Positions 1 to 47,650 of a stretch of DNA of 64,000 bases are shown piece after piece (the stretch's first letter is position 1; each line of letters opens with the position of its first letter). The position numbers and the translations under genes are program-made. The stretch is from Cellulophaga sp. L1A9 (lineage in GTDB: Bacteria; Bacteroidota; Bacteroidia; Flavobacteriales; Flavobacteriaceae). The notes beneath the pieces are model-generated. The model saw nothing but the letters and a program-made list of their open reading frames with translations. It did no database searches and had not been told where the DNA came from. The stretch covers positions 992,001 to 1,056,000 of the forward strand of contig NZ_CP047027.1 in the NCBI RefSeq assembly GCF_009797025.1. The letters are read 5' to 3'.

Positions 1-548
1 CAGGAAATTCAGTTGTCGACGTAGGCGCAGATGAAAAAAACATAAAGACAAACTTCAATAATCGTTCTTTAAATATAACTATTCCTTTAAACCGAGAATA
101 TAAAAATGTAAATGGAACAATCGATATTTCCATAAACGAATTTGGAGAAGTATTTTTCAAAGAGTTCAAAAAAGTTGATAAAAATATAAAATTCAACTTG
201 GGCAAGATTGACCAAATTGAACTTATCAAAATAGAAAAAAATCGTGCTTATTTATTATTGCCTTCTAAACTATCGGAAGTCGAAATAATCCCTACAAATA
301 AATCAGATGAAATCTTTTCTGAAAAAACAAGGTTAACTGTTCCAAAAACAATTTATGAGTTCTCAAAAAACAAAAACTTAACAGATGAATCGATTAAAAG
401 CTTCGTGAATGATTTATCATACGCTGATGCTTACAACAATGAACAGATAGTAGTAATAGAAACTAATGGAGTGATAGAAAATCTATACGTCTTTATAAAA
501 TCTGATTCGAAAAGACTATGTAAAGAAACTATGGAAATAAAACTATAG
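1..548 (+). CDS. Hypothetical protein, 5' end outside the window
   Basis: The reading frame is open from position 3 back to the window edge, so the gene starts upstream and about 181 C-terminal codons are visible. The TTG at 198 is an internal Leu codon, not a convincing start. The visible part is Lys/Asn/Glu-rich, with alternating beta-type segments and no membrane segment, and I recognise no family. Its TAG stop (546-548) overlaps the left arm of the repeat element at 547-741, as expected if gene and element form one cassette. A true gene is likely; its function is unknown. Confidence 0.6.
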   Translation, partial: GNSVVDVGADEKNIKTNFNNRSLNITIPLNREYKNVNGTIDISINEFGEVFFKEFKKVDKNIKFNLGKIDQIELIKIEKNRAYLLLPSKLSEVEIIPTNKSDEIFSEKTRLTVPKTIYEFSKNKNLTDESIKSFVNDLSYADAYNNEQIVVIETNGVIENLYVFIKSDSKRLCKETMEIKL

Positions 549-741
549 CTAACACATCTTATAAACAATACGGGCTTCGGGCTTAATCGAATGGTTTGTG
601 TATTTTTATGATGTCCGCAAAATCTTTTGGATTTTGCTTTAAACAATAAAAGAAAAAACAAAACAAAAAGATTTTGCTATGTGCGTGGCGGAAAGTAAAC
701 GCTAGTTTACTCCCGTACTGTTCATAGCTCCATCGTTGGCA
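547..741 (+). repeat. attC-like intergenic element, copy A
   Basis: First of three diverged copies of one spacer element (the others are at 3168-3367 and 4071-4250). It begins AGCTAAC (547-553) and ends at a GTT (735-737). Inside are a perfect hairpin GCAAAATC/GATTTTGC (617-624/630-637) and a terminal palindrome GTAAAC/GTTTAC (695-700/705-710) within a longer imperfect stem in which GCTATG on the left matches the complement of CATAGC on the right. Five bases after AGCTAAC, TTATAAAC is partly complementary to GTTCATAG near the right end (6 of 8). The outer arm, short spacer, inner arm and variable tip resemble integron attC sites, although 195 bp is long for one. Confidence 0.6.
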
Positions 742-763
742 CACATAAAGCGAAAATCATAAA

Positions 764-1993
764 ATGAAATTATATATAACTCTAATAACAATGATTTTAA
801 CGACAAATTTATTTTGTCAAGAGATAAAGACGATAATTTCCATAGAAGGAGAAACATTTGACTTTGGAATTGAAGTCCAAAATGATTGGAAAAAAAGAGA
901 CCAACTATTAGAAGATTTAGCCAATGAAAAAAAGAGTTGGGATAATTTAACAGAAGAAGAAAGTGAGCTTTTTGAAAAATATGACGAAACCTATGGAAGT
1001 ATGTGGGATGTGGAAGGAGGTGGATGCAGTTGGTACTGTGGGGCTGGAGAATATAGCGTAACAACATCATCTGAATTATCTTCTAACGGAAAAATAGATT
1101 ATAAAGCGAAAAACCTAACTGATTTTAGTTACCAAACTGCTTGGGTAGAAGGGAAAAAAGGCTACGGAATAGGAGAATCTATCAATTTTAGTTTTGCTCC
1201 TACGCATCCAAGAGTAACAACAATAATCTTCGCTAACGGTTATGTGAAAAGTAAAAAGGCTTGGAAAGACAACTCAAGAGTGCATAAATTAAAAATGCTT
1301 GTTAACAATGAACCATTTGCTATAATTGAATTAAAAGATATTTATTCAAAACAAATAATTGAGCTTGAAAAACCTCTAGGAAATTTAGATAGGAAAGATT
1401 TTGACAAATTAAAGGAGAAAGATAATTGGAATATAAAATTTGAAATTCTATCTGTTTATAAAGGAGACAAATATGATGACACCGCCATTTCAGAGCTTTA
1501 CTTTGATGGTTTGGATGTTCATTGCTTGGCAAAAGGAACATTAATAACTATGGGTGATAAAACACTCAAAAAAATAGAAGATTTAAAAGTAGGAGACAAA
1601 ATACTGTCTTATAACAAAAAGACTGGTGAATATGAAAGTTCTATCATAAAAGAATTAGCAAGTCAAATTCATAAAGATCTTATCAATATCGAGTTCTCCA
1701 ATGGAATGCAATTAACCTGTACAAAAGACCATCCTTTTTTAGCGAAAAACCTTAGTTGGACTTCGATGAACCCCAACAAGACAGAAAGAGACTATGAAAT
1801 AAATGATGTAATACTACTTAAAGTAGGAACTAAAGTTAGAGATCTGAAAAGCGAATTAGAAGTTGTAAAAATTAATGAGGTTAAAGAAGAACAGATTACT
1901 TACACAATTGTTGACTTAAGCAAAAACAAGACATTTGTTGCAAACGGAATAATAACTGGGATTGAAAAATTACGTGTGCCAAAAAAGAACTGA
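764..1993 (+). CDS. Secreted protein with C-terminal Hint (intein-like) domain
   Basis: A 409-residue protein with an N-terminal signal peptide (residues 1-18, ending LFCQ). Residues about 85-250 contain a beta-rich domain around SYQTAWVEGKKGYGIGESI that resembles the discoidin-like NADase-type glycan-binding domain of other exported proteins. Residues 254-400 are a Hint domain: Cys254 in CLAKGT (block A) and TxxH at 320-323 in TCTKDHPF (block B). The last block reads FVANGIITG and lacks the usual terminal His-Asn, so Cys254 could still support an N-S shift, but normal C-terminal cleavage or splicing looks impaired. The last codons overlap GTGTGCCAA (1974-1982), the reverse complement of TTGGCACAC (736-744) just before the gene. 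Hint assignment is firm; the biological role is unknown. Confidence 0.75.
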   Translation: MKLYITLITMILTTNLFCQEIKTIISIEGETFDFGIEVQNDWKKRDQLLEDLANEKKSWDNLTEEESELFEKYDETYGSMWDVEGGGCSWYCGAGEYSVTTSSELSSNGKIDYKAKNLTDFSYQTAWVEGKKGYGIGESINFSFAPTHPRVTTIIFANGYVKSKKAWKDNSRVHKLKMLVNNEPFAIIELKDIYSKQIIELEKPLGNLDRKDFDKLKEKDNWNIKFEILSVYKGDKYDDTAISELYFDGLDVHCLAKGTLITMGDKTLKKIEDLKVGDKILSYNKKTGEYESSIIKELASQIHKDLINIEFSNGMQLTCTKDHPFLAKNLSWTSMNPNKTERDYEINDVILLKVGTKVRDLKSELEVVKINEVKEEQITYTIVDLSKNKTFVANGIITGIEKLRVPKKN

Positions 1994-2000
1994 GGTAAAA
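1984..2000 (+). repeat. 17-bp direct repeat at gene end, copy 1
   Basis: AAAGAACTGAGGTAAAA occurs identically at 1984-2000, 5797-5813 and 6699-6715, each time at or just after the end of a plus-strand gene. Here it contains the TGA stop of the Hint-domain gene. In all three places it follows a short arm resembling the left end of an attC-like site (GTGTGCCAA, GGCACAAC, TTGGAAC). It may mark a second subtype of cassette-end element. Confidence 0.7.
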
Positions 2001-2045
2001 AGCAAACAGATTCTTTGAGCTTTTTTCATTCGATTTATCCTCTAT

Positions 2046-2400
2046 TTATTTAGGCAATACAGAAATGTACCTTTCATCATAGGGTCTGCCAGATTTTGCA
2101 ATCGCAAAGGACTGTTCAATCTGTTTGTTGGCAACGGCTATCAATGCCAGTTTCTTGTGCTGCCCTTTGTTCACGATGTGCTCATGCTCTGCATTCCTTG
2201 TTATGCGTACAAGCATTGAAAGAACATAGAAACAATAGATTACGAAGCTTTCTATTACCGACCTTACTTATTCGCGCTCTACCTCTTACACTGCTCTCCA
2301 ACTCACGTATTATTGGAGTAAGACCGACATAACTACAAAGTTGTGATGCTGTTTCAAACCTATTTAAAACGTACCATTTACCGATTATATGAAATACTTT
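2046..2400 (-). pseudogene. Remnant of IS110-family transposase (C-terminal part)
   Basis: Reading the minus strand from about 2370 gives RFETASQLCSYVGLTP followed by SSVRGRARISKVGNRKLRN, the conserved C-terminal region of IS110/IS116-type transposases (Transposase_20). The frame then hits TGA near 2190, and the protein continues in another frame as HKKLALIAVANKQIEQSF and further to a TAA at 2046-2048. So it is a truncated, frameshifted fragment of about 115 residues without the N-terminal DEDD catalytic domain. It lies where the repeat element after the Hint gene would be expected, so it probably inserted into that site. Overlapping plus-strand ORFs here are shadows. Confidence 0.7.
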
Positions 2401-2560
2401 TTAGAATAATAGCTAAATAGTTACCACTAGTTTGGAAACCGAAGACAACTATAGGAAATAAAAGTTATTTTTATAATCGGTATTTCTCCCCCCACAAAAA
2501 AATAATATGGAACATGCGTGTATACGCTTGTTGTAACACATTTAACGAAACATATTGAAA

Positions 2561-3163
2561 ATGATAAAAAACCTCCTAATTATTATAGTCTTATTGTCTT
2601 TTCTAAGCTGTGGTAATACCAAATACACCTATCTTTTTGAAAAAGGAAAAAATATAGATTTCTCAAGTGGTAAGTGGATTTTAAATGAAACATATACCAA
2701 TAATACAAATGGAAGAATTCAACATATTGCAGTAAGAGAATTTAAAGATATATTGAAGGACTCACTTTTTGAATTAACAGAACTCAGAAGTGATAAATTA
2801 GTTGCTTCTAAAATACCCTTCGAACCCAAGGAATCGGACTTAAAGGATTTGAAAATAGGTACAGCCTGTGATTATTTAATAAATATAAAATCAATTATTG
2901 AGAAGGACAAAATGGGTTCATTTCCAAATACTCCAAATATTGGTAGCACAAAAAAAACTAATCAAGCTCAAATTACAATTAGAATCTATGATTTAAACAA
3001 ATTAACCCTAATATCCGAATCAACTGTAATTGGAAAAGCAGAATTAACAAAAAACTCGGATGACGGAAATTTGGATTATGTAAATACTGGGTCAACTATT
3101 TCTATGAATGGTTTATCTAAGCTAATTCGAAAATATGAAAAAAATAAAGTCATAAATAAATAA
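2561..3163 (+). CDS. Putative lipoprotein, unknown function
   Basis: A 200-residue protein starting at ATG 2561; a TTG two codons earlier is less likely. It has a short lipoprotein signal, LLSFLSCG, with the lipidated Cys at residue 17, so it is predicted to be anchored in the outer or inner membrane. The mature part has alternating strands around ACDYLINIKSI and AQITIRIYDLN, suggesting a small beta-rich fold. I recognise no family. The gene is flanked by a perfect 12-bp inverted pair, TTGTTGTAACAC at 2528-2539 and GTGTTACAACAA at 3168-3179, the latter being the left arm of the downstream element. That marks it as a self-contained cassette. Confidence 0.7.
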   Translation: MIKNLLIIIVLLSFLSCGNTKYTYLFEKGKNIDFSSGKWILNETYTNNTNGRIQHIAVREFKDILKDSLFELTELRSDKLVASKIPFEPKESDLKDLKIGTACDYLINIKSIIEKDKMGSFPNTPNIGSTKKTNQAQITIRIYDLNKLTLISESTVIGKAELTKNSDDGNLDYVNTGSTISMNGLSKLIRKYEKNKVINK

Positions 3164-3167
3164 AAAC

Positions 3168-3367
3168 GTGTTACAACAATACCTATAAGAAATGCGGAGT
3201 TTGGTGTTTAATTCAATGGCTTGTGTATATTTATTTGTTCGCAAAATCTTTCCGATTTTGCTCTGGCTAAGAAAAAATAAATCAAAACAAAAAGCTTTTG
3301 CTACATGCGTAGACGGAAACAAAAAGGTTTCCTTGCCTCCGCACTACTCATAGCTTTAACGTTAGCT
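3168..3367 (+). repeat. attC-like intergenic element, copy B
   Basis: Second copy of the spacer family. The left arm GTGTTACAAC is followed after five bases by CTATAAG, which pairs 6 of 7 with CTCATAG near the right end (about 3347-3353). It contains a perfect GCAAAATC/GATTTTGC hairpin (3241-3261) and a terminal palindrome GGAAAC/GTTTCC (3315-3320/3327-3332), and ends TTTAAC-GTTAGCT with the GTT at 3361-3363. The central text, GTGTATAT.TTATTTGTTCGC and AAAACAAAAAGCTTTTGCTA, is shared with copies A and C, while the arms and the hairpin tip differ, as in integron attC families. Confidence 0.6.
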
Positions 3368-3392
3368 CTCAGGTAAAAAAATAAAAGAATTA

Positions 3393-4055
3393 ATGAAGTC
3401 ATACCATATAATTTTCAATTCGGATTATCTTGATAAAATGAATATTGACAAGGAACACGCAACCTGTACTATAGACAATCAAAAGGACACGGAATATTTA
3501 TTTGGAGGCAGTTTAAATGACGAATCTGACAGACATTTAAATCGTTTAATAACATTATCCCCAATTCCGAGTGAAATTGAAATCTCTAACCTGTCAAAAC
3601 TTACTCTTGCAATTGACTTTGAATTATTTTTCAATAGTTTGTTATGTGATAAGTATCTATATTATCAACACGACGCTGAAGGTTACCCGACTTTATTTAC
3701 AAAAGATATTGTTGTATCAAATGAATACGACAAAAAACCAATAATTGAAACTAAAGTGAAATTAGGAGAAACTCCTCTTGAATGGTCAGATCAAGGATGG
3801 GGAGATGGGAATAATAACAAAATTGGAGGAGTTCCAACTTGGGTGCAAGAGCCTAAATATTTGAATTGTCCTTGCTGTAAAGAAAAAATGATGTTCTTAA
3901 TGCATTTAAATAGTGATTTACCAGTGAATGAACCCGAGCAATTACAAGATGGGCGAATTTACAAAGACACAATAATGTTTGGTAGTGGAGGCATTTGCTA
4001 TGTTTATTGGTGCGATAAAGACAGGATCAGCGGCTATTTATGGCAAAGTACATAA
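3393..4055 (+). CDS. DUF1963-like (YwqG-related) cytoplasmic protein
   Basis: A 220-residue protein without signal peptide or membrane segments. The second half shows a DUF1963-like pattern: KIGGVPTWVQEP (about 141-152), a CPCC cysteine cluster (about 158-161) that could bind zinc, and FGSGGICYVYWC near the end. DUF1963/YwqG proteins often occur in cassette-like and toxin-immunity settings, but their biochemical activity is not established. It is bracketed by GTTAGCTCT (3361-3369) upstream and ACAGCTAAC (4069-4077) downstream, which are complementary at 8 of 9 positions. A second DUF1963 gene lies at 9250-10125; the two are not close copies. Confidence 0.6.
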   Translation: MKSYHIIFNSDYLDKMNIDKEHATCTIDNQKDTEYLFGGSLNDESDRHLNRLITLSPIPSEIEISNLSKLTLAIDFELFFNSLLCDKYLYYQHDAEGYPTLFTKDIVVSNEYDKKPIIETKVKLGETPLEWSDQGWGDGNNNKIGGVPTWVQEPKYLNCPCCKEKMMFLMHLNSDLPVNEPEQLQDGRIYKDTIMFGSGGICYVYWCDKDRISGYLWQST

Positions 4056-4070
4056 TGTTAAAAACCCAAC

Positions 4071-4250
4071 AGCTAACACTATACATTACAAACTTGGTGC
4101 TTAGTGATTAATCAAAGGTTATTGTGTATTTTTATGAAGTCCGACAAATTTTTCGGATTTTGCTTTAAACAAAAAAAGCTTTTGCTAAGGGCTGTTGCGC
4201 AATGGGAACTGCATCCCGCTGCCCCACTACCCTTAACTCAGGCGTTGCTG
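4071..4250 (+). repeat. attC-like intergenic element, copy C
   Basis: Third copy of the family. It starts AGCTAACACT (4071) like copy A and has the shared centre GTGTATTTTTATGAAGTCCG (4124-4143) and GGATTTTGCTTTAAAC. It then carries a long imperfect palindrome: AGGGCTGTTGCGCAATGGGA (4188-4207) against TCCCGCTGCCCCACTACCCT (4214-4233), which pairs at 14 of 20 positions around the loop ACTGCA. It ends AACTCAGGC-GTTGCTG (GTT at 4244-4246), strikingly like the AACTCAAGC-GTTAGAT end of classical integron attC sites. The mismatches in the stem are also typical of attC. Confidence 0.6.
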
Positions 4251-4271
4251 TAATTAATAAAACCACCTTAA

Positions 4272-5780
4272 ATGAAATTAAAAATCCTGCTTGTAATTAT
4301 ATTCAGTCTAAATGCGGTCATTTTAAAAGCACAGAATAATTGGTTGACTAAAAAACAGGTGACTGAGGACATTAAATTTCTGACAAATACATTAAATAAA
4401 AAATCTTCCTATGTTTACTTAAATGGCTATAACTTCAATAGCGATTTTGAAAATTACCTTACTACCATAAATGATACTACACGGCTTGAAGATTTTGGCC
4501 TGTTTATTACCAAAACTTTGGCTAAAATTGGCGACAGACACTCTTCTTTGGCTACCATAAGGGGTTTTGACTTAAAGGAGACTCTTTTTTTACCCTTTAT
4601 GTACGCACCGCAAAATGAAAAAGTAGTCGTTTTAAATTTCGATCAAAATAAAGAATTTGAAATATTAATCCCAAAATTCCCTTATCTCAAAAAAATAGAC
4701 GGAATCGACATTCAAGATTTCCTTTTAAAAACACGTCCAGAAGATATAAAAGCACCTAAGGAAACTTATTTCACAATGGCGGTTAGAGATATTAGGGACA
4801 TTCAAAAAAATTACTTACTTCTTAATAAGCCATTGCCCAAAGAAGTTAAATTAACCCTTTCAGACCCTACGCTTCAAAATGATACTATTTTAGTAGTGCC
4901 GATAATTGATAAATTAAAAAGATTGCGCCCTTGGGACGAAAAATTTGAAAGAGCATATGTTCGTGTAAAAGATGAAGATTTCAATAAACCAGAAATTATT
5001 GAAAAACTCTTTAGTATAAAAGACGATATTGCCTATATCAGGCTTCCTGAAATGGTTGATAGCGATGAGGCTCCTTTTCTTTTTGACAAACTCAACTTAT
5101 TTATGCAATCCATTCAAAACAGCAGTAAAGCCATGATTATTGATGTAAGAAGTAATAGTGGTGGAACCCGTGATGTAATGTATGAGTTTGCAAAATATTT
5201 GGTGCATCCTGATTCTGTCTATGTTGTGAATGCTACTAGACAAAGAGGTCCACTTCCTTTACCAAAAGAGTATAAAAAAAGTTTGAAGAATCGGTATTTA
5301 GTTTCCTTTTCTAAATTGGATAGCAGAGAACAGAAAAAAGCAACTGCCTTTTTGGAGAATTTTGAACCTGTATATGAATTAGATGAAAAAAAATACAGTG
5401 AATATTATTTTGGATTATTGAACGGAAAGAAGTTAGCCAAACCAACTTTTTACTATGACAGGCCCGTTTATATTTTAGCCAACGAAAAGACATTTAGTGC
5501 AGCATCCGTTTTTGTTTCTGCTTTTAAGGGATTACCGAACATCAAAATTGTAGGGGTAACCACAGACGGCTCAAGTGGAAACAGCGAGTGGGTTGATTTA
5601 CCTCATTCAAAATTATTTGGAAAAATTAGCACGATGGTTTCTTTTCAAAAAGATGGACAAATTTTGGACGGTTACGGAACAGAGCCCGACATAAAAATTG
5701 AAAGAGACATTTCTCAAATTCTTTGGCAATCAGATACCCAATTAGAAAAATTAAAAGACTTCATACTGACTGAAAATTAA
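4272..5780 (+). CDS. S41 family peptidase (C-terminal processing protease type)
   Basis: A 502-residue exported protein with a signal peptide (about residues 1-21, ending KAQN). The C-terminal half is a Peptidase_S41 domain: DIAYIRLPEM, AMIIDVRSNSGGT, then TFSAAS with the nucleophile Ser409, VGVTTDGSSGNS, and DGYGTEPDI near the end. No obvious PDZ domain is seen in the N-terminal 200 residues. Such enzymes cleave exported proteins or peptides in the periplasm. The gene stands alone between element C and the hairpin-rich spacer at 5781-5955, so it looks like a single-gene cassette. A fragment of another S41 C-terminus lies at 7424-7639. Confidence 0.85.
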   Translation: MKLKILLVIIFSLNAVILKAQNNWLTKKQVTEDIKFLTNTLNKKSSYVYLNGYNFNSDFENYLTTINDTTRLEDFGLFITKTLAKIGDRHSSLATIRGFDLKETLFLPFMYAPQNEKVVVLNFDQNKEFEILIPKFPYLKKIDGIDIQDFLLKTRPEDIKAPKETYFTMAVRDIRDIQKNYLLLNKPLPKEVKLTLSDPTLQNDTILVVPIIDKLKRLRPWDEKFERAYVRVKDEDFNKPEIIEKLFSIKDDIAYIRLPEMVDSDEAPFLFDKLNLFMQSIQNSSKAMIIDVRSNSGGTRDVMYEFAKYLVHPDSVYVVNATRQRGPLPLPKEYKKSLKNRYLVSFSKLDSREQKKATAFLENFEPVYELDEKKYSEYYFGLLNGKKLAKPTFYYDRPVYILANEKTFSAASVFVSAFKGLPNIKIVGVTTDGSSGNSEWVDLPHSKLFGKISTMVSFQKDGQILDGYGTEPDIKIERDISQILWQSDTQLEKLKDFILTEN

Positions 5781-5790
5781 AAAAACTAGG

Positions 5791-5950
5791 CACAACAAAG
5801 AACTGAGGTAAAAAACATAGGGCTTTTATATTTACTTACTAAGTCTACTAAACATAAAAGCAAAATATGTACTGTTAGCTGAGTAATAAACAAGAACGAC
5901 AGTGCTTAGCTCCTGCCCTACATTTCTTATATAAGCCGGCACAAAGCATA
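5791..5950 (+). repeat. Hairpin-rich spacer with 17-bp repeat copy 2, possible divergent attC-like site
   Basis: The spacer after the S41 gene begins GGCACAAC followed by AAAGAACTGAGGTAAAA (5797-5813). AACATAGGGC (about 5813-5823) is complementary at 8 of 10 positions to GCCCTACATT about 95 bases later, and inside it AGCTGAG faces CTTAGCT. The whole can fold as one long imperfect hairpin of about 120 bases. This matches the architecture of elements A-C but not their sequence, so it is a possible divergent member. No gene is seen in it. Confidence 0.4.
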
Positions 5951-12446: not shown

Positions 12447-13778
12447 GTCCGTTCGAGTAGCGAGAACTTTTTAAAGCACAGAAAACTTCTCGATACTAAT
12501 TACTTCTCCGCTAACGCTTCAAAATAATTCACTCGAAGTGACTAGCATTTTCATAGACAACACTGCAGTGTCAGTTCGAGTGGCGATTGAGAAGTGAAAC
12601 GGAACAAGCGTTGTATCGAGAACTTTCTGAAGCACAAAAAACTTCTCGATACTAATTACTTCTCCGCTAACGCTCCGAAATAATTCACTCGAAGTGACTA
12701 GCATTTTCATAGACAACACCGATGTCAGTTCGAGTGGCGATTGTGTAGTGAAACGGAGCAAGCGTTGTATCGAGAACTTTCTGAAACACAGAAGACTTCT
12801 CGATACTAATTACTTCTCCGCCAACGCTTCGAAATAATTCACTCGAAGTGACATCCATTTTCATTAACAACACCGATGTCAGTTCGAGTGGCGATTGAGA
12901 AGAAACGGAACAAGCGTTCTATCGAGAACTTCTTGAAGCACAGAAAACTTCTTGATACTAATTATTCTCCCACTAACGCTCCAAAATAATTCACTCGAAG
13001 TGACAAGCATTTTCATAGACAACACTGCAGTGTCAGTTCGAGTGGCGATTGAGAAGTGAAACGGAGCAAGCGTTGTATCGAGAACTTTCTGAAACACAGA
13101 AGACTTCTCGATACTAATTACTTCTCCGCTAACGCTCCAAAATAATTCACTCGAAGTGACTAGCATTTTCATAGACAACACTGCAGTGTCAGTTCGAGTG
13201 GCGATTGAATAGTGCAACGGAACAAGCGTTGTATCGAGAACTTCTTGAAGCACAGAAGACTTCTCGATACTAATTACTTCTCCGCCAACGCTCCGAAATA
13301 ATTCACTCGAAGTGACTAGCATTTTCATAGACAACACCGATGTCAGTTAGAGTGGCGATTGAGAAGTGAAACGGAACAAGCGTTGTATCGAGAACTTCTT
13401 GAAGCACAGAAAACTTCCCGATACTAATTATTCTTCCGCCAACGCTTCAAAATAATTCACTCGAAGTGACATCCATTTTCATTAACAACACCGATGTCAG
13501 TTCGAGTGGCGATTGAGAAGTGAAACGGAGCAAGCGTTGTATCGAGAACTTTTTAAAACACAAAAAACTTCTCGATACTAATTACTTCTCCGCTAACGCT
13601 CCGAAATAATTCACTCGAAGTGATATCCATTTTCATTAACAACACCGATGTCAGTTCGAGTGGCGATTGAGAAGTGAAACGGAGCAAGCCTTGTATCGAG
13701 AACTTTCTGAAGCACAAAAAACTTCTCGATACTAATTACTTCTCCGCTAACGTTCCAAAATAATTCACTCGAAGTGAC
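12447..13778. repeat. Tandem array of eight 154-bp palindromic units plus one truncated unit
   Basis: GTCAGTTCGAGTG or a one-base variant starts units at 12570, 12724, 12878, 13032, 13188, 13342, 13496 and 13650, giving periods of 154, 154, 154, 156, 154, 154 and 154. Each unit is a 129-bp imperfect palindrome ending CACTCGAAGTGAC, with a perfect inner pair GTATCGAGAA/TTCTCGATAC, followed by a 25-27 bp linker of two types (TAGCATTTTCATAGACAAC or ATCCATTTTCATTAACAAC). The first unit (12447-12542) lacks about 33 bp of one arm. The array lies between the convergent ends of the DUF3037 gene and the lipoprotein gene. Minus-strand ORFs here only translate the repeat. Confidence 0.95.
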
Positions 13779-46501: not shown

Positions 46502-47650
46502 TTAATCGTTGATAAACTCTTCTCCTAAATTAAAGGTTAAAGAAAAACGCAATGTATTCTCTAAAGGGTTTTGTATTTTAGATGATGAAAACAAATACGA
46601 TAAATCTACTTGAGCCGCTTTAAATTTAAATCCTGCTCCTAGTGAGAAAAACTTTCTTGATCCTTTTTCTTCGCTTTCATTAAAGTACCCTGTACGTAAC
46701 ATAAACGCATCCTGATAGCTATACTCTGCACCAAGTGCCCATGTAAATTCTTTCAGTTCTTCCGAAAAACCATCAGGAGCATCATTAAATGATTTAAAGA
46801 CACCACTTAAAAACCCTATTTCTTGGTATTCCGTATTATCGACACTATCAATATCCCCATCCTCATCAAAATCTTGAGGGGTTGGTACTAATAATTTATT
46901 AAATTCTGTGGATAAGGCTAACTTATTATCTGCATCGAAAATAAAATCAAAACCAGTTCCAAATTTTAAATTTGTTGGTAAGAAATTTTCTTGCCCGCCT
47001 TCGTCATAAGAAATCTTATTTCCTAAGTTTGAAAGGTTAAAACCTAATCTCCAGCGCCCATCAAAATTATCATAAGCGATTTCTCTTGAACGGTAAAAAC
47101 CAGCAATATCTACTGCAAAAGCACTAGCCGCCTGGGTATCTGCTGAACCTGCTTGATCAGGAAATTTTAAATTGGAGCTAATAAAACGCGCTCCCACAGC
47201 CATAGCAAAAGTCTCGCTAAGCTTTAATGAATAGGAACCATCAATAGCAAATTCATTTGGTTTTGTTGTTGTTCCCGGATCATTTGCAAATTGTCTAAGT
47301 TCAATTTCTCCTAAGGTAAAATAGCGAATACTCGCAGCAAAAGCGCTACCGTCGTCAATTTTATTATAAAAACTAGCATTTAGTAATGCGATGTCTGTTA
47401 TAATACTCTCTAAATATGGTGTATAACTTATTCCTATTCCCATTTTCTGTTCTGCAAAAGCAAATTTCGCTGGGTTCCATTGCTGTGAATAAGCATCAAC
47501 TGATGTTGCTATACCAATATCTCCCATACCAGAAGCACGAGCATCTGCAGAAATTGTTAAAAAAGGAACTCCGGTTGTAATAACACGCTCGTTTTGAGCG
47601 GATACTTTAGACAAACCTATAATTAAGGCAACTACTAATAATTTTTTCAT
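46502..47650 (-). CDS. porV: Type IX secretion system outer membrane protein PorV
   Basis: A 382-residue outer membrane barrel with a signal peptide (1-18, ending KVSAQ). The PorV pattern is GVPFLTISADARASGMGDIG then VATSVDAYSQQWNPAKFAF near the N-terminus and LGAGFKFKAAQVDLSYLFSS near the C-terminus. PorV is the shuttle of the type IX system that moves cargo with a C-terminal domain to the cell surface attachment complex. It is divergent from gldJ, which belongs to the linked gliding machinery; in many relatives porV is next to porU, which is absent here. It is monocistronic, with its own terminator. Confidence 0.92.
   Translation of the reverse strand: MKKLLVVALIIGLSKVSAQNERVITTGVPFLTISADARASGMGDIGIATSVDAYSQQWNPAKFAFAEQKMGIGISYTPYLESIITDIALLNASFYNKIDDGSAFAASIRYFTLGEIELRQFANDPGTTTKPNEFAIDGSYSLKLSETFAMAVGARFISSNLKFPDQAGSADTQAASAFAVDIAGFYRSREIAYDNFDGRWRLGFNLSNLGNKISYDEGGQENFLPTNLKFGTGFDFIFDADNKLALSTEFNKLLVPTPQDFDEDGDIDSVDNTEYQEIGFLSGVFKSFNDAPDGFSEELKEFTWALGAEYSYQDAFMLRTGYFNESEEKGSRKFFSLGAGFKFKAAQVDLSYLFSSSKIQNPLENTLRFSLTFNLGEEFIND

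Follow-up and report, generated by a model that had tools for sequence, protein, structure and literature searches.

Integrons are the textbook gene-capture system. Their attC sites are reported to be 57-142 nt long and to have an L stem with two or three extrahelical bases, which mainly set the choice of strand (PMC2727003). The integron recombinase, IntI, is described as carrying an additional domain around patch III (PMC9668308), and its ancestor has been proposed to have gained the I2 helix (PMC4792948). Reviews list Bacteroidota among the integron-bearing phyla (PMC8618304, PMC9668308), and the IntegronFinder 2.0 survey names one complete Bacteroidetes case, Salinibacter ruber M1 (PMC9024848). 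Here we analyse a 64,000-nucleotide window of the chromosome of the flavobacterium Cellulophaga sp. L1A9 (G000:C1:992001-1056000, on a single 5.07-Mb contig), in which a preliminary description had picked out three copies of a hairpin element and read them as long attC sites served by a distant integrase. Our analysis makes it very likely that the window carries a cluster of mobile cassettes belonging to an integron-like system, far from the non-IntI tyrosine recombinase of that system at 3.903 Mb. No earlier description of such a system was found in a literature search, preprints and most subscription papers lying outside it.

A family of sites bounding duplicated genes

Copy 1, the leftmost of the three, has at least 38 matches in its source genome at E <= 0.01, a few of which are pieces of one site; this count is a lower bound, 40 of the 97 first-look candidates having been scored. 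Because one copy alone finds so many matches, the family is present far above chance. The matches are grouped in arrays A (3.85-3.90 Mb), B (3.78-3.80 Mb), C (0.22-0.24 Mb) and D (0.98-1.00 Mb, the array of the window), together with scattered sites. All 15 plus-strand matches lie below 1.85 Mb and all 23 minus-strand matches above 3.64 Mb. With dnaA at 111-1502 of the chromosome and the terminus assumed to lie opposite, all 38 are co-oriented with the replication fork. A nucleotide profile (nhmmer) built from 21 own-genome copies recovered 61 full sites, spread over 14 of the 18 stretches scanned, with a GTT end in 61/61 and an AAC start in 57/61, letters that are also present in the profile seed.

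Near-identical cassettes sit at two to four places of the source genome. A 487-bp unit occurs in A, in B and twice in C with a pairwise identity of ~96-100%; the cassette that follows its GTT differs each time, and its four copies stand behind three different upstream sites (the B copy and one C copy share one). A and C share identical copies of a 777-bp unit, each behind an upstream site of a different subfamily, a third unit is 99.8% identical over 580 bp between A and B, and a fourth is found twice in A and once in B (97.9-99.7% identity). At the right edge, homology stops 0-5 nt past the next GTT in nine comparisons. At the left edge, copies with unlike upstream sites share homology from the G onward, with the exception of B 5389, where a doubled GTT shifts it. 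As judged from these sequence comparisons, the sites mark the ends of putatively mobile single-gene cassettes. The preliminary description had proposed a strain comparison to see whether gene-plus-site units are gained or lost exactly at the GTT; such units do recur within the genome with breaks at this triplet, and the cassettes closest to the attI site described below differ between species right after the G.

Complementary cassette ends

In integrons, the letters after G|TT move together with the downstream cassette; the start of a cassette is therefore expected to be complementary to the end of that cassette, not to the opposite end of the site. Over 31 pairs of adjacent sites, the mean complementary run beyond GTT was 5.03 nt, against 1.34 nt for shuffled partners (highest of 2000 shuffles, 2.32) and 0.91 nt for the two ends of one site (n=57); the run reached 6-7 in 21/31 pairs. 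A second set, taken from AAC to GTT with a slightly different choice of sites, comprised 33 pairs, of which 23 were clean. In these clean pairs, positions 1-9 were paired in 23/23 cases and positions 10, 12 and 13 in 22/23 each, while position 11 opposed an A at the cassette start to a C at the cassette end, a top-strand A.C, in 23/23.

This pattern was turned into a unit finder requiring GTT plus 7 nt, a complement ending in AAC 250-3000 nt away, A/C at position 11 and at least one of positions 12-13 paired. The finder uses the end rule only and is independent of the site subfamily. It returned 200 units on the array strand of 30 stretches and 3 on the other strand (G014 and G014c have 4.3 kb in common, so that a few units are counted twice), while other letter pairs at position 11 gave 0-6 units instead of 200. 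The 196 units left after removal of repeated starts, which begin with GTTRNNNNNN and end with the complementary ...AAC, have a median length of 686 bp and a median coding fraction of 0.92; the longest open reading frame (ORF) lies on the plus strand in 181 of them, and 110 have the next unit 47-187 nt downstream. In 12 of 12 control stretches, six at other tyrosine recombinases of the same genome and six arbitrary, no unit was found on the designated strand; a single other-strand unit appeared, in one stretch (L132). Six more own-genome stretches with scattered matches hold four units, in three of the six.

The cassette array with a GTT crossover that had been proposed from three copies is thereby borne out, both by the complementary cassette ends and by the duplicated units that break at GTT. 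The preliminary description had set against its own proposal a family of the repetitive extragenic palindrome (REP) kind, and a dispersed intergenic hairpin repeat resembling REP sequences, bacterial interspersed mosaic elements or miniature inverted-repeat transposable elements would indeed account for many intergenic hairpin copies in scattered arrays. However, such a repeat would not predict that the ends of gene units are complementary well above shuffled partners, that whole-gene duplicates break at GTT, or that arrays start at a recombinase (see below), and 38/38 own-genome matches run with replication. We regard this explanation as practically negligible.

Site structure and the bottom strand

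Structure was assessed on 104 different sites, each bounded by two verified units. Their lengths span 52-192 nt and fall into classes of ~52 nt (2/104), 110-129 nt (39/104) and 180-199 nt (63/104); the long form on which the preliminary description rested is only one of several classes. In the L stems, top-strand A.C oppositions occur 240 times versus 46 for G.T. Site by site, the wobbles favour the bottom strand in 92 cases and the top strand in 1, with 10 ties (103 sites with a scored stem). The A.C positions are fixed: L10, 10 nt from AAC, in 91/104 sites and L15, 15 nt from it, in 92/104. When the best of 144 registers is taken for each site, 74/104 sites form an ungapped 16-bp L stem that is fully paired on the bottom strand (G.T counted) and contains no extrahelical base; the remaining 30 form 10-15 of the 16 pairs. 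Folding of the stems alone makes the bottom strand more stable in 61/61 sites. The wobbles may take over the strand-telling role of extrahelical bases, and a strand signal of this kind would fit a recombinase devoid of the IntI helix that is described as contacting attC (PMC4792948).

Minimal 52-nt sites in L088 (G009) and L111 (G002) show the same kind of wobbles around a CTTCGGG-type tip.

The recombinase and its attI site

A tyrosine recombinase gene is found at G000:C1:3902750-3903873, in the same direction as the cassettes, and array A begins 40 nt after its stop codon. A survey of 80 genomes (own included) found matches to its N-terminal half in 44 (E <= 1e-8) and a close recombinase, with 38-95% identity over most of that half, in 16 relatives. 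In the 14 of these 16 whose recombinase neighbourhoods were read, the gene is intact (14/14) and sites or units lie downstream of it (14/14); nhmmer detects them in 13, missing G026, and the unit finder in 12, missing G016 and G034, where the contig breaks off shortly after the recombinase. G013, a member of the same genus, has a recombinase identical to a protein of Cellulophaga algicola DSM 14237. The distant integrase that had been postulated for the window thus has a counterpart more than 2 Mb away, and array-carrying relatives do have a tyrosine recombinase beside their arrays, but in neither case is it of the IntI type that had been expected: the IntI domain is missing and the TIGR02249 cut-off is not reached.

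A dyad such as AATAACCGTATGTATACGGTTATCCTTACG|TT follows the recombinase stop codon, ahead of the first cassette. Three sets of related species (10 pairs), picked by likeness of recombinase and dyad, were compared over the 37 nt that end with the G and over the 37 nt that follow GTT. The first segment shows 84-100% identity and the second 38-62%; in a fourth set of more distant species (6 pairs) the values are 57-86% and 41-62%, respectively, random pairs having a mean of 38% and a maximum of 62%. Because the sequences of related species match as far as the G and then diverge, we define this dyad, conserved to the G and variable after it, as the putative attI.

The dyad resembles dif, and the recombinase core resembles XerA (4a8e), which would suit Xer/dif-like modules with short double-stranded sites that are moved by the chromosomal XerCD. 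Yet no units occur at two ~300-aa recombinases of the genome taken, informally, for its own Xer genes (L127, L128), the sites are hairpins of 52-192 nt whose wobble pattern is one-sided, and the arrays adjoin a dedicated recombinase. We consider the Xer/dif explanation highly improbable.

A canonical integron whose IntI has merely diverged has to be weighed as well. The locus shares with integrons an array of single-gene cassettes beside the recombinase gene, an attI conserved to the crossover and variable after it, and sites with complementary R boxes, a GTT triplet, an unpaired spacer and paired L boxes, the place of the crossover being deduced from the breakpoints. Nevertheless, P0001, an intact recombinase from a relative, scores 188.8 bits with TIGR02249, whose IntI cut-off is 265. 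In the alignment, both IntI-specific insertions are absent from the 8 Bacteroidia array-type rows shown and present in the 3 IntI rows shown. In the tree, IntI forms one clade with 100/99 support on a long branch, and the Bacteroidia array recombinases form a separate clade. The sites differ too: beside true IntI genes (14 stretches, seven genomes), only 2 of 48 ten-bp pairs show the position-11 A.C, and the extrahelical bases expected on the L stem are lacking in the 74/104 sites with a complete 16-bp stem. A diverged IntI is consequently very unlikely. Because the recombinase is devoid of the IntI domain and falls in a separate clade, and because most sites need no extrahelical base, we classify the system, as far as its sequences go, as integron-like and not as an IntI integron in the strict sense.

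Many Bacteroidia array recombinases carry an extra N-terminal domain of ~100 aa. In P0001, residues 1-105 form an N-terminal domain, unassigned to a family, with a weak fold resemblance to the N-terminal part of XPB and to the SMARCAL1 HARP domain. XPB and SMARCAL1 HARP act on forked DNA.

Occurrence in Bacteroidia

A relative of the recombinase is present at E <= 1e-70 in 101/198 Bacteroidia genomes (own included). From this set, 20 class-level loci were chosen by hand, and 10 of them yielded units, all 28 of which lie on the array strand. Ten further stretches with other recombinase lineages hold 2-16 units each; in four of these, 47-136 nt separate the recombinase stop from the first unit, and in others the distance is larger. 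True IntI scores above the cut-off in 84/296 genomes of the phylum, only 1 of the 84 being in the same class. In marine flavobacteria and other members of the class, single genes appear to be exchanged as mobile cassettes by an integron-like machinery with an enzyme and recombination sites unlike those of known integrons.

Features of the window

The three diverged copies that the preliminary description had placed at 547-741, 3168-3367 and 4071-4250 are present, with the exact limits given in Table 1, and each sits, as stated there, 3' of a stop codon (the preceding genes run to 548, 3163 and 4055) and 5' of a co-directional gene. The count of three has to be extended by a site split by an insertion sequence (IS) and by a fourth, degenerate site. 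The arms of site 1 (TATAAACAATACG / CGTACTGTTCATA) show A.C mismatches on the top strand, and the left arm of the split site (~1980-2004) resembles 5793-5817, the left arm of site 4. The ends of cassette II, with a 10-nt complement and A/C at position 11, fit the full unit rule; its gene product was judged lipoprotein-like by eye and has no Pfam match.

Table 1. Sites and cassettes at the start of the window (positions in the window)
Feature	Position	Strand	Details
attC-like site 1	551..737	+	AAC 551-553, GTT 735-737; profile nhmmer E 3.4e-61; putative crossover G735/T736
Cassette I body	736..1978	+	start TTGGCACACA; gene 764-1993; 3' site of the cassette interrupted
Split attC-like site	~1979..2532	+	IS110-type remnant ~2004-2529 inside; GTT 2530-2532 retained
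Cassette II	2530..3177	+	start GTTGTAACAC A TTT; end AAA C GTGTTACAAC; gene 2555-3163
attC-like site 2	3175..3363	+	AAC 3175-3177, GTT 3361-3363; nhmmer E 1e-42
Cassette III	3361..4077	+	start GTTAGCT, end AGCTAAC, 7-nt complement; gene 3393-4055, no Pfam match
attC-like site 3	4075..4246	+	decayed; nhmmer E 5.5e-17 over model positions 20-187
Cassette IV	4245..5796	+	gene 4272-5780, S41 peptidase domain
attC-like site 4	~5794..5938	+	shorter subfamily, degenerate, GTT lost; proposed from left-arm similarity to 1980-2004

The protein of cassette I (764-1990) has an NADase_transloc domain followed by a Hint-type module. Farther along, window positions 12457-13735 hold a ~154-bp tandem repeat with related copies ~36 kb upstream and in relatives.

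The remnant in the split site is named IS110-type via its sister copies, two ORFs of which match PF02371. Remnants of this type lie inside attC-like sites in the window (2004-2529), in L046 and L200 (eight more copies, array D) and in array C. The window remnant has 14 other matches, 9 of which stop at GTT or at most 34 nt past it and 5 (A, B, C, G010, G017) earlier; the insertion sequence may target attC-like sites. The same IS end, TTGACCCGTCCTGAA..., stands directly after the first 10-13 nt of different cassettes at A 8722, A 15803, G010 6832 and G014 4507, and another IS end is likewise placed at C 16846 and G005 16629; insertion a short way into the R' box thus appears to be recurrent. 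L039 (8998-10249) holds ORFs judged by eye to be IS3-like.

Discussion

We propose a mechanism in which the recombinase would bind the folded single-stranded bottom strand of a site at its R and L boxes, cut next to the GTT and join a cassette circle to attI, with replication resolving the product of this joining. Three G.T wobbles, at R11, L10 and L15, would tell the bottom from the top strand. Arrays away from the recombinase, such as that of the window, could have arisen by off-target insertion or by rearrangement.

Several observations weigh against this reading. We infer the recombination activity of the system, and the comparison covers one genome per species. The recombinase gene of the source genome itself is split into two frames; the system may therefore now be frozen there, or the shift may be a sequence error. 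Among adjacent sites, the complementary run is below 6 in 10/31 pairs and only 0-1 in 7 of those; some of these pairs enclose a weaker site (e.g. array A 47053-47215), and others lack an explanation. Whole-core folding makes the bottom strand more stable in only 49/61 sites. Copy 3 of the window is decayed, and its arms fail to pair. In one relative (G014), three listed matches near 1.74 Mb oppose the direction of the fork. At the class level, 10/20 loci are without units, six of them in stretches shorter than 5.1 kb and four in stretches of 14-20 kb. Finally, some genomes without a close recombinase still have pattern matches (e.g. 16 in G017, 9 in G007 and 7 in G018), and G022 and G049 have a close recombinase and zero matches to the pattern; the pattern is therefore narrow, and its link with the recombinase is not one to one. 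In G017, the units are preceded by a second recombinase lineage.

On balance, the system is probably a second kind of integron, widespread in Bacteroidia, whose recombinases have no IntI domain and would read hairpins via three fixed G.T wobbles. The Bacteroidia lineage may be a sister of IntI that keeps the state before the I2 helix and the extrahelical bases, or a separate invention. It seems to do the job of IntI without the I2 helix and mostly without extrahelical bases, and the long-standing question of how a recombinase evolved the use of a folded single strand would become testable. If this is true, a parallel gene-capture system has been overlooked in one of the dominant groups of marine and other bacteria, perhaps because systems of this kind are searched for through IntI and standard attC models. 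The cassettes represent a large store of unknown genes.

Among described systems, the IS1111-attC insertion sequences offer a possible parallel to the IS110/IS1111-type remnants that lie inside attC-like sites here. XerA (4a8e), of the XerA/XerC-like enzymes, is the best Protein Data Bank sequence match of the recombinase core, and a dyad is present at attI; unlike these enzymes, the Bacteroidia recombinases head cassette arrays, and many have the ~100-aa N-terminal extension. Array D of the window (~1.0 Mb) is without a nearby recombinase, like a cluster of attC sites lacking integron-integrases (CALIN), the recombinase at 3.90 Mb being more than 2 Mb away either way round, but the window sites would be a new attC type. 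The closest likeness is with sedentary chromosomal integrons: a recombinase beside attI, one-orientation arrays of single genes, the R'', L'', variable tip, L', R' layout, a probable GTT crossover, complementary cassette ends and a distinguishable bottom strand are common to both. The Bacteroidia system departs from them in a recombinase that is without the IntI additional domain, falls in another clade and reads along the cassette direction, and in an attI that contains a dyad. Its sites, of ~52, 110-129 and 180-199 nt versus the 57-142 nt given in PMC2727003, have an R box that comprises 10 bp and a wobble where integrons have a heptamer, and an L stem that mostly has no extrahelical bases but carries G.T wobbles at fixed positions.

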